A model generated the notes under the pieces. It was not told the DNA's origin, ran no database searches, and worked only from the letters and a program-made list of their open reading frames with translations. The position numbers and the translations under genes were made by a program. From Microcystis aeruginosa LEGE 91341 (GTDB lineage: Bacteria > Cyanobacteriota > Cyanobacteriia > Cyanobacteriales > Microcystaceae), in the NCBI RefSeq assembly GCF_015206885.1, contig NZ_JADEXY010000006.1, forward strand, positions 1-64,000: a stretch of DNA of 64,000 bases, in the 5' to 3' direction. Below are positions 23,055 to 28,034 of the stretch, piece by piece (the first letter of the stretch is position 1; each line of letters starts with the position of its first letter).

Positions 23055-23717
23055 TTATTTTTGCTTCTTGAAGCGGGAAACCATTCCTAAACCACCCACT
23101 GCCAGAAGTCCGAGGATAGTACCCGGTTCGGGGGTTTGTTTGTAAGCATTGTTCAAGCTGAATAGACCTTCACCGGGGTTAGCAGCAAGGGTATCTGTGA
23201 CGGTCAACTTTTTGATGGGGGCGATAGGGTAAAAACCTATAGCAGGGTCAGAACTGCCGTTAACTGAAACTAAGACATTAGGTATCTCAGCAAATGTTTT
23301 GGTTACAGTCCCGTAAGTGGCTGTTACGTCTGAATCCAGTGCAACCGCGGTAATATACTGGTTGGGGTCAGTGACCTCGATTGTATATGTGAAAGACCCG
23401 GAATTCATATTAGCCCCAGGGGAACCCAGAGTCGTGGCATCGTACACGAAATCATACTCATCACCGGTCAACAGCAGGGCAACTTCATCCAGCGGATCGG
23501 CCCCAAAGCCATTTTCTGAGACGAACGTAACTTTTTTGTCCCCAGCAGTAAGAACATTAGAATATGTTCCAGTGATAGGATCTAACGTCGTCCATTGCCC
23601 CCAAGTTAATATGTTGGCGGCACTCGCACTGGTAGCGGCAAACACGGAGCCGGCGAGAACCCCGATCGCTAGAGAGCCAGAAGCAAAGGTTTTGGTTAAT
23701 TTGTTGGTTGTCATCAT
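23055..23717 (-). CDS. PEP-CTERM sorting-domain exported protein
   Basis: 220 residues. A signal peptide (about 1-34, ending SASAA) is followed by a beta-rich domain. The C-terminus has the full PEP-CTERM signal: TPEPGT, a hydrophobic helix (ILGLLAVGGLGMVS) and a basic tail RFKKQK. Such proteins are processed by exosortase and are often tied to extracellular polysaccharide. No exosortase is in the window. The role of the central domain is unknown. Confidence 0.88.
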   Translation of the reverse strand: MMTTNKLTKTFASGSLAIGVLAGSVFAATSASAANILTWGQWTTLDPITGTYSNVLTAGDKKVTFVSENGFGADPLDEVALLLTGDEYDFVYDATTLGSPGANMNSGSFTYTIEVTDPNQYITAVALDSDVTATYGTVTKTFAEIPNVLVSVNGSSDPAIGFYPIAPIKKLTVTDTLAANPGEGLFSLNNAYKQTPEPGTILGLLAVGGLGMVSRFKKQK

Positions 23718-24188
23718 AACTGAATTATCCAGCGTTAATTGTGTGTACTATAGCCATCAAAAGAAGTTAGGCAAGGGTTAAGCTCGCTAATAACTTTTTG
23801 TTTGACTTGACAGAACTATAGCGAAACTTTTCAAAAAAAACAAGTGTTTTAGAAAACTTTTTTTCGGCAATATTTATCTATTTTTTTGTCCAATTTATAG
23901 CAGTTTTTTCTCAAAATAACTGCCCAAAAATTGACAAATATACCCAAGATTTTTGGTGAAAGTTGGACAAATAAACAGGCTCTACTTAAAAAAAAATCTC
24001 TCAAGTTGTTACAAAACTTAATCAAAAGAGGGACAATGTATAAAATTTAACAGTTTTGATCGTTAAAACTGAAATTGCATAAGAATTAAAAGACCTGCGC
24101 TTTGATAATGTACCTTTTGGGCGAACGCAGTTCGCCCCTACATTGTGGACAAAATCCGTTACTATCAATCAGGTTTGCTGATCACCCT

Positions 24189-24270
24189 AAGTAGGGGGAG
24201 AGCCTTCGAGGACCCCCGCAGGATAGCCTTGATCAGGGGGGTGTCTGATAATTTTTAACGCCTACCTACT
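24189..24270 (-). mobile_element. AGTAGG-family MITE copy, inverted
   Basis: Starts TAAGTAGGGGGAGAG and ends GTCTGATAATTTTTAACGCC and TACCTACT, the reverse complement of the family left end. The centre is altered (CGAGGACCCCCGCAGG). It lies about 150 bp upstream of the recombinase-like gene. Confidence 0.65.
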
Positions 24271-24325
24271 CATCTCTATCTAAAGATATATGACTAATTT
24301 GCCTCAATCATCTAGACTCACGATT

Positions 24326-24379
24326 GTAGGGTGACCCTACTATAAAAGTGGACAACCAACTGTCTAAAATTGGACAACC
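24326..24379 (+). promoter_or_regulatory. Palindrome plus paired TGGACAACC repeats
   Basis: A 15-base near-palindrome GTAGGGTGACCCTAC (24326-24340) is followed by two direct TGGACAACC repeats at 24349-24357 and 24371-24379. Their starts are 22 bp apart, about two helical turns. They end 42 bp before the recombinase-like start codon. This is plausible as a binding site for that protein or a residual transposon end. Confidence 0.4.
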
Positions 24380-24421
24380 TTACCTCGATAAATTTCTTTA
24401 ATTAAAACCGAGTTCTATATT

Positions 24422-25033
24422 ATGAATAACCTCATCACTATTCGAGAAGCCTCGGATTTGCTTGGAGTTAGCATTAAAACCCTCCGGCGCTGGGAACAAC
24501 AGGGGAAAATTGCCTCAATTCGTACCGTTGGCGGTCATCGCCGATTTCGACGGGTAGATATCTTACAATCTGTACAAGAAACTGGATTTATTGTGGGCTA
24601 TGCTCGTGTTAATCGACCTGAACAAAAACCACAATTAGACGACCAGATAAAAGCGTTAGAAGACTTTTGTAGTCAGCAGGGTCAACCCTTTGAAATTCTC
24701 ACCGATATCGGCGACGGAGTCAGCCACAATCACCCTAATTTTATGCGTCTAGTGAAGATGATTTGTCACGGTGAGGTGAAATCTCTAGTTTTAACCCATC
24801 CGGAAAGTGTGAGTCGCTTTTGTCATGATTTTATTTTGGGTTTGTGCAGTCTCTTCAAAATCCAAGTCATTCTCCTCAATCAACCCCAGGAATCCATTGC
24901 AGCTGAGGATTTAGTCGAGGATATCCAATCCCTCGTTACCATCTGTTACAATCGTCTCTACCCGCTACATAACCCAGATCATCAGCAATTACTGCAATAC
25001 CTAGGGGCGCTTAAGAATCTCCCCCCGGCTTAA
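24422..25033 (+). CDS. Orphan IS607-type MerR-HTH/serine-recombinase-like protein, catalytic Ser replaced
   Basis: 203 residues. The N-terminal MerR-like helix-turn-helix (about 5-45: ASDLLGVSIKTLRRWEQQGK, GGHRRFRR) is that of IS607 TnpA resolvases. The second domain keeps the GYARVxxPEQK frame, but the catalytic serine is Asn64 (YARVN in place of YARVS). The usual D-R-L-x-R-F motif is PESVSRF, so another active-site position is changed. DNA binding is probably retained and strand cleavage lost. There is no tnpB next to it. It may be a domesticated regulator or a dying transposase; the full-length intact frame favours the former slightly. Confidence 0.75.
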   Translation: MNNLITIREASDLLGVSIKTLRRWEQQGKIASIRTVGGHRRFRRVDILQSVQETGFIVGYARVNRPEQKPQLDDQIKALEDFCSQQGQPFEILTDIGDGVSHNHPNFMRLVKMICHGEVKSLVLTHPESVSRFCHDFILGLCSLFKIQVILLNQPQESIAAEDLVEDIQSLVTICYNRLYPLHNPDHQQLLQYLGALKNLPPA

Positions 25034-25162: not shown

Positions 25163-25349
25163 AAACTTCTTGCATAATTAATTTTTGAGGGTTCAAAAAC
25201 GGTCTATTTAAGGATTAAATTGCATAAAATCCTTAAATAGACCGTTTAATTGATTATTATTCATTCTTAATTCTCCTGACTACTAACTCCTGACTCCTGA
25301 CTCCTGACTCCTGACCCTAACAACAATTTTTGATTTTTACAAGAGGTCT
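25163..25349. mobile_element. IS5-derived MITE directly upstream of thiE
   Basis: Left end AAACTTCTTGCATAATTAA; right end, read inward, AGACCTCTTGTAAAAATC. ATT flanks both sides (25160-25162 and 25350-25352), a 3-bp target duplication. An almost identical element with the same ATT flanks lies at 61137-61306. Its centre carries GGTCTATTTAAGGATT inverted repeats and GACTCCTGACTCCTG runs. It ends 11 bases before the thiE start. Confidence 0.8.
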
Positions 25350-26825: not shown

Positions 26826-28034
26826 TCACTGAGTTTCCTTAATCTGGCAGGACGTATCCAACCAAACCAGAGGGAATCTCTCCCCAAGCGTATTAGTTTC
26901 GGTGTGTCCCACCGTACTTAGTCCCTTTTTGAGAATATTGATAGCGGCGTTAATATCTCTATCTTCTACATAGCCACAATGGGGACAAACATGGGTTCTC
27001 GTAGATAGAGATTTAGGGACTTTTTGACCACAATTAGAACAATTTTGACTCGTGTTATGGGGGGCTACTGCTACTGTAGCCTTACCATATTTAAAACCAA
27101 AATATTCTAACCATTGCCGAAAAGTTGACCAAGCCACATCATTAATAGATTTAGCAAGTTTAGAGTTTTTTACCATGCCTTGAATATTTAAGTTTTCGTA
27201 GGCGATGAAATCGTTAGATTTAATGACGCGCAATGCCTCTTTTTCGACAAAGCCTTTACGTTGCCTACTTACTCTTAAATGCTTTCTAGCATATCTCTTT
27301 CTAGCTTTTTGGTAGTTGTTTGATTGGGGTTGACCTTTTCTAAACTTTTTAGATTTCTTCCGATTCAGTCGGTTTAATCTTTTTTCTGCCTTGCGATAGT
27401 ATTGCGGTATTTCTACTATTTCCCCATCACTGTTAGCGTAGAAAACTTTTAAACCTACATCCAATCCCACACATCTTTTTGTTGGTTCTAGGGGTTTAGC
27501 ATATTCCCGAATATCAACGCTAAGACAGAATTGGACATAATAACCATCTGCTCGTTTAACAATCCTAACTCGTTTAATTTGGTCTAGAGGGTAAAAGTTT
27601 AAGTCTCTAGTTCCTTTCAGTTTAACCGTGCCAATGTTTTTCTTGTCTGTGAAAGTTATTTTCTTTCTATCCTCCGATAATTTCCATCCGGAGTTTTTAT
27701 ATTCCACAGAACGATTATTTTTCTGGAATTTAGGATAACCCTTTTTACCTTTAACCTTTTTCTTACAATTGTCATAGAAACGAGCAATAGCTGACCAAGC
27801 TCGTTCGGCCGATGCTTGTCTGGCCGTAGAATTTAGAGTATCGACAAACTTGAACTGTTTGGCGAGAACTGCACAATATTTATTGAGAGAATATTTATCG
27901 ATTTTGTCTTCTCTCTTGGCATCCATCCAAAGCCTTAAAGCCTTATTACGGATGAATTGTACTGTACGAATAGCTTCATCAATGGCAGAACACTGACTTG
28001 GTTTGACCACGGCTTTCATTTCTAAGACAATCAT
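26826..28034 (-). CDS. tnpB: TnpB, RNA-guided endonuclease of IS200/IS605 type
   Basis: 402 residues and apparently intact. Split RuvC residues are Asp192 (GLDVGLK), Glu280 (AYENLNIQGM) and Asp360 (EDRDINAA). The zinc finger is C332-x2-C335 (NCSNCGQ) and C350-x2-C353 (VCPHCGY). TnpB proteins are guided by an omega-RNA copied from the 3' end of the gene and the right end of the element. It promotes retention of the transposon at donor sites. The guide would come from sequence just past the hairpin at 26797, that is, from thiS. It runs convergent to thiS. Confidence 0.9.
   Translation of the reverse strand: MIVLEMKAVVKPSQCSAIDEAIRTVQFIRNKALRLWMDAKREDKIDKYSLNKYCAVLAKQFKFVDTLNSTARQASAERAWSAIARFYDNCKKKVKGKKGYPKFQKNNRSVEYKNSGWKLSEDRKKITFTDKKNIGTVKLKGTRDLNFYPLDQIKRVRIVKRADGYYVQFCLSVDIREYAKPLEPTKRCVGLDVGLKVFYANSDGEIVEIPQYYRKAEKRLNRLNRKKSKKFRKGQPQSNNYQKARKRYARKHLRVSRQRKGFVEKEALRVIKSNDFIAYENLNIQGMVKNSKLAKSINDVAWSTFRQWLEYFGFKYGKATVAVAPHNTSQNCSNCGQKVPKSLSTRTHVCPHCGYVEDRDINAAINILKKGLSTVGHTETNTLGERFPLVWLDTSCQIKETQ

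Follow-up and report, generated by a model that had tools for sequence, protein, structure and literature searches.

A catalytically degenerate IS607-type transposase retained in Microcystis as a predicted DNA-binding protein and proposed autoregulator

Regulators are known to arise from exapted transposon proteins, and several described systems come close to the locus analysed here. IS607-family TnpA proteins bind helically phased motifs in the transposon left end, and IS607 no longer transposes when the catalytic Ser of its TnpA is changed to Gly (PMC6188088). BldC regulators, which assemble as cooperative multimers on direct repeats (PMC5859096), are the nearest regulatory precedent, although in our case the direct repeats are seen in the sequence alone. 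CvkR is a MerR-type repressor of a type V-K CAST, and its publication draws no tie to serine recombinases (PMC9938897). The TldR proteins, nuclease-dead regulators derived from TnpB (named in PMC13418256), likewise come from a gene of IS605/IS607-type elements that has lost catalysis and regulates genes; they are RNA-guided, whereas the protein described below derives from TnpA and is predicted to bind DNA through a helix-turn-helix (HTH). The principle of an exapted transposon protein is thus known, but a full-text literature search, with most subscription papers outside its reach, brought up no description of a regulator made from an IS607 serine transposase.

We analysed a 64-kb stretch of Microcystis DNA (the window), in which one gene encodes a 203-aa protein that we propose, with a probability of roughly 0.7, to be an autoregulator that derives from a transposase and binds DNA, with a modified transposon left end as its operator and possibly with control over a divergent PEP-CTERM gene as well (Table 1). 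As in IS607-family TnpA (IS607, IS1535, ISC1926; PMC6188088), an N-terminal HTH (Pfam MerR match, 2e-14) is followed by a serine-recombinase domain (Pfam Resolvase match, 7e-9). The NCBIfam IS607 transposase model scored 121.6 bits against a cut-off of 110, so that annotation pipelines would name the protein a transposase. The fold agrees as well: a search with the AlphaFold model (mean pLDDT 79) returned the IS607 TnpA catalytic domains 3lhk, 3lhf and 6dgc as best matches, and BldC for the HTH. The HTH is indeed close to BldC regulators in fold and sequence (about 41–45% identity to the crystal structures); unlike them, the protein carries an extra 150-aa recombinase-derived domain, and it missed the NCBIfam BldC cut-off (52.1 versus 77 bits). 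CvkR, comparable in being a cyanobacterial MerR-type repressor linked to a mobile element, was recovered by neither the sequence nor the fold search.

Table 1. Features of the degenerate tnpA locus (positions in the 64-kb window)
Feature	Position	Strand	Basis or remark
Degenerate IS607 TnpA-like protein, 203 aa, proposed autoregulator	24422–25033	+	ORF and domain matches
BldC/MerR-like winged HTH, residues 4–50	24431–24571	+	Recognition segment KTLRRW + GGHRRF; omega about 0.3
Serine-recombinase (resolvase) domain, residues 57–171	24590–24934	+	IS607 TnpA catalytic-domain fold, catalytic residues gone; omega about 1
AAT codon, Asn64 replacing the catalytic Ser	24611–24613	+	Asn in 10/10 intact Microcystis copies
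E-S-V-S-R where catalytic D-R-L-x-R is expected	24803–24817	+	
Proposed operator TGGACAA-CCAA-CTGTCTAAAA-TTGGACAA	24349–24377	+	Two direct TGGACAA 22 bp apart, inverted TGTCTAA between
Palindrome GTAGGGTGACCCTAC	24326–24340	.	Present; not kept in other Microcystis
Left-end-type site GTTGGACAAA	23962–23971	+	Between the divergent PEP-CTERM gene and the regulator
Left-end-type site ATTGGACAAA	23885–23894	-	Upstream of the PEP-CTERM gene
PEP-CTERM surface-protein gene, candidate target	23055–23717	-	Divergently transcribed

The preliminary description had read the protein as an IS607-like recombinase with its catalytic Ser changed to Asn and its D-R-L-x-R motif altered, and both readings were borne out. 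Residues 60–64 are Y-A-R-V-N, the position of the D-R-L-x-R motif reads E128-S129-V-S-R132, and the catalytic set R-S-D-R-R has become R-N-E-S-R. All ten intact Microcystis copies share the signature RNE(S/T)(R/L) in place of the IS607 catalytic set, the second catalytic Arg also being gone in two genomes. Given the joint loss of Ser, Asp and Arg and the precedent of the Ser-to-Gly change (PMC6188088), there is little doubt, judging from these residues, that the degenerate TnpA no longer cuts DNA. The same observations weigh on the idea of a recombinase still active through Asn64 or a substitute nucleophile, which might, for instance, carry out a programmed rearrangement of the PEP-CTERM region. 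The variable and duplicated PEP-CTERM neighbourhood would fit such an activity, as would the relocation of the gene in two genomes, once clearly accompanied by a PEP-CTERM gene, but the missing Asp and Arg residues and the Ser-to-Gly result make it extremely improbable.

As described before, no tnpB partner lies beside the gene in its neighbourhood in the window. The nearest tnpB, at 26826–28034 on the minus strand past thiE, is a stand-alone IS200/IS605-type gene separate from the degenerate tnpA; it is common to only some Microcystis genomes and 97.8% identical in G008. The absence extends to the relatives, tnpB following 0 of 23 degenerate genes versus 26 of 58 active-type genes. We found 14 more degenerate TnpA-like proteins, spread over four other genera of the GTDB family to which Microcystis belongs. 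None of the 24 degenerate proteins has the complete set of Ser, Asp, Arg and Arg, whereas 56 of 59 active-type TnpAs retain all five catalytic residues (RSDRR). In the tree, the 24 fall outside a clade of 57 active-type TnpAs, nearly all of them catalytically complete (support 98/99; 95/99 with the reduced set). The Microcystis stem is long, and a single origin of all degenerate proteins is not favoured by the data, as a tree that places the non-Microcystis proteins in a clade of their own fits equally well (p-AU 0.50). Relatives on phages and plasmids were all below 60% identity, the best ones being named IS607 transposases or integrase-resolvases, and none were found on viral contigs.

Full-length, in-frame degenerate homologues are present in the four other genera, and their locus is constant within the genera where more than one genome carried them. 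From the sequence we take their neighbours to be groL (beside arrays of three), a glycosyltransferase-like gene and a prepilin peptidase-like gene. The groL-side arrays (L049 4438–6538 and L050 7652–10142) each consist of three tandem degenerate TnpA-like genes, one of which lacks the HTH in one array while its counterpart in the other has an altered HTH. In addition, TnpA-like matches occur within open frames of 734 and 562 aa (G072:C359:16441–16974 and G064:C1:820776–821213), which are possible TnpA fusions.

Within Microcystis, an intact copy was present in 10 of 12 genomes at 79–85% identity. YARVNRPEQ is invariant among these copies, and Asn64 is fixed in all ten, in one of them through a synonymous codon change; together with the wider degenerate set in the family, this is the opposite of the refuting case named earlier, homologues nearly all with Ser and Asn as a scattered singleton. 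Unlike a mobile IS607 element, the gene is single-copy and mostly occupies one conserved locus, upstream of thiE, whose proteins are 96–98% identical. It lies elsewhere in two genomes (G001:C137 and G005:C1:2215921), close to a phosphomannomutase-like gene; G005 has a PEP-CTERM gene beside it there, and in G001 the PEP-CTERM copy that shares the upstream module is located on another short contig. The two genomes without an intact copy (G010 and G011) hold only remnants of it at thiE, indicating that the gene was ancestral to the genus sample and is dispensable.

Selection on the gene is uneven. Pairwise dN/dS was 0.26 for the HTH and 0.78 for the rest of the gene, with 0.10 for thiE, and the codon model (likelihood ratios taken from a grid) gave an omega of 0.3 for the HTH (2ΔlnL 23.6 against omega 1) and of about 1.0 within Microcystis for the recombinase domain. 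Diversifying selection on residues 104–160 was considered and dropped, since their omega of 1.6 was not significantly greater than 1 (2ΔlnL 1.7). At a dS of about 0.17, no stop codon or internal indel was present among the ten intact frames; in neutral simulations on the ten-copy tree, none of 400 runs for the whole gene left every frame free of stops, and 1 of 400 did so for the recombinase part alone. These simulations and the HTH omega indicate retention of the reading frame and the HTH alongside a loose recombinase sequence. The purifying selection that the preliminary description proposed to look for is therefore clear for the HTH and for frame integrity, but does not extend to the residues of the recombinase domain.

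Such a pattern has to be weighed against simple decay, in which the gene would be a slowly dying transposase and its upstream sites a fossil left end. The loose recombinase domain, the remnants in two of the 12 genomes and the HTH fragments and orphan leader copies close by in several Microcystis genomes are all compatible with decay. However, no neutral run reproduced the ten full-length frames, the HTH is constrained, Asn64 and YARVNRPEQ are invariant, the candidate operator is preserved although its flanks diverge, and full-length degenerate homologues persist in four other genera at loci that are stable wherever more than one genome could be compared. We therefore regard decay as unlikely.

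The operator candidate contains the two upstream repeats reported earlier, TGGACAA at 24349 and 24371, 22 bp apart, and lies about 45–75 bp upstream of the start codon. A version of AAGTGGACAACTGACTGTCTAAAGTTGGACAAT is found upstream of all ten Microcystis copies, in some of them mismatched, farther away or duplicated. In pattern-based, genome-wide scans of the 12 genomes, the dyad and the 22-bp pair were almost confined to this gene, which speaks against a global regulon. Exact TGGACAA-N15-TGGACAA occurred eight times, seven of them upstream of the gene or of duplicated leader remnants; the eighth is an array of three units that precedes an unlinked PEP-CTERM-like gene by about 300 bp. The remaining upstream elements that had been listed fared less evenly. 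The palindrome GTAGGGTGACCCTAC exists, but none of the nine other Microcystis copies has it; we take it to be probably incidental and rejected it as an operator. Among the further GGACAA motifs, some, such as that at 24144, were discarded as they fall inside a dispersed repeat (about 24092–24221), whereas the sites at 23885–23894 and 23962–23971 lie outside this repeat and are the strongest left-end-type sites of the region. Two dispersed repeat families (24092–24221 and 24227–24276), each with many copies in the genome, separate the PEP-CTERM promoter region from the operator. An Rfam search gave no match at gathering level, and the signal in a promoter scan was no greater than in shuffles. 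The motif of CvkR is reportedly AnnACATnATGTnnT, which differs from these sites.

The left ends of sister active IS607 elements contain up to three TTAGACA units in 10-bp phase directly upstream of tnpA. Using a site matrix trained solely on left ends of active elements, we found four sites in 23718–24421 versus 0.41 expected (p about 0.001), making it the densest 704-bp stretch for such sites in the window, and 18 sites versus 3.7 expected upstream of the nine other Microcystis copies. As a matrix trained on active ends marks this region, the putative operator appears to use the ancestral left-end motif in a changed arrangement. The phased left-end motifs of the IS607 family thus recur upstream of the degenerate gene in modified form, at 22-bp spacing and with the middle unit inverted. 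Pairs of TTGGACA/TTRGACA at 10-bp distance were missing from Microcystis save for one match, and upstream of several other degenerate copies no left-end-type sites were found. The correspondence with the left-end motif of active relatives supports the earlier suggestion of a transposase-derived DNA-binding regulator.

The HTH itself points to the same class of ends. HTHs of the type KT(I/L)xRW + GGHRR(F/Y) go with TTRGACA ends and those of the type STLRRW + (N/S)GHRRY with TTACTCA ends; the Microcystis protein has the former. This raises the question of a domesticated transposition inhibitor, a dead protein that would bind incoming TTRGACA-type left ends or dimerise with their TnpA. Apart from the retained HTH type, this would suit the finding that all active elements with TTRGACA ends that we detected came from outside the family of the degenerate proteins. 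Nevertheless, the active IS607 elements found in Microcystis and the family (e.g. G000:C237) have TTACTCA-type ends or neither motif, so that no present target for an inhibitor is visible; moreover, the conserved feature is a site array at the gene itself, for which autoregulation is the simpler explanation. An inhibitor therefore seems improbable to us.

Taken at the level of a catalytically dead, retained, transposase-derived and predicted DNA-binding protein with a left-end-derived operator, the proposal is well supported by sequence, and autoregulation appears the likeliest function. By its sequence the gene descends from an IS607-type transposase and has lost catalysis (Ser to Asn, Asp to Glu, one Arg to Ser/Thr) while retaining the HTH for DNA binding and the dimerisation/catalytic-domain fold. 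Active relatives bind phased TTAGACA-type repeats in the left end just upstream of tnpA; here the array has the modified form TGGACAA, inverted TGTCTAA and TTGGACAA, 22 bp overall. We infer that the protein binds this array, most likely in a cooperative manner, and thereby controls transcription from its own promoter, with repression the probable outcome. The sites at 23885–23971 before the divergent PEP-CTERM gene may be a further target, and the two site clusters could be bridged as TnpA bridges transposon ends. Several observations count against the proposal: the exact sequence of the recombinase domain is hardly constrained, the gene has been lost from two of the 12 genomes, the 22-bp spacing with an inverted middle unit differs from the 10-bp direct array of active left ends, and several other degenerate copies show no such sites upstream. 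If the proposal is correct, a single transposon, with active relatives available for comparison, supplied both the protein and its operator, and regulators can be concealed under the annotation 'IS607 family transposase', in this case beside surface-protein genes of a bloom-forming organism.

Control of the PEP-CTERM gene by the degenerate TnpA is a more tentative proposal, towards which we are slightly sceptical. The gene diverges from the proposed autoregulator in most genomes, sometimes as tandem copies, and left-end-type sites lie near −176 and −252 relative to its start. What speaks for control is that the two genes are neighbours, that two sites have been inherited along with the region, and that one array lies at an unlinked place. 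Elsewhere in the genomes, members of this gene family are without sites, so we do not consider the family a regulon, and common ancestry of the region suffices to explain most cases. The unlinked array (L127 3034–3083, in G001), an independent case, comprises three TTGGACAA units at 22-bp spacing upstream of a strain-specific PEP-CTERM-like gene, a label that reflects our reading of the C-terminus of its product, which NCBIfam does not recognise. More speculatively, the dead IS607 transposases of this one cyanobacterial family could all be local regulators with inherited left-end operators, the Microcystis protein looping its operator to the PEP-CTERM promoter sites; a loop of about 400 bp would then reuse the paired-end complex of the transposase for repression, thereby controlling surface proteins. 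We think this rather doubtful.

Two further observations concern the surroundings of the gene. Tandem PEP-CTERM genes with orphan regulator-leader copies between them (L130 6332–12742 and L041 8148–10388) suggest that regulator and PEP-CTERM module duplicate together. Finally, 3′ of the regulator gene, window positions 25196–25250 form a long near-perfect hairpin (ACGGTCTATTTAAGGATT...AATCCTTAAATAGACCGT), which is probably another small mobile repeat.
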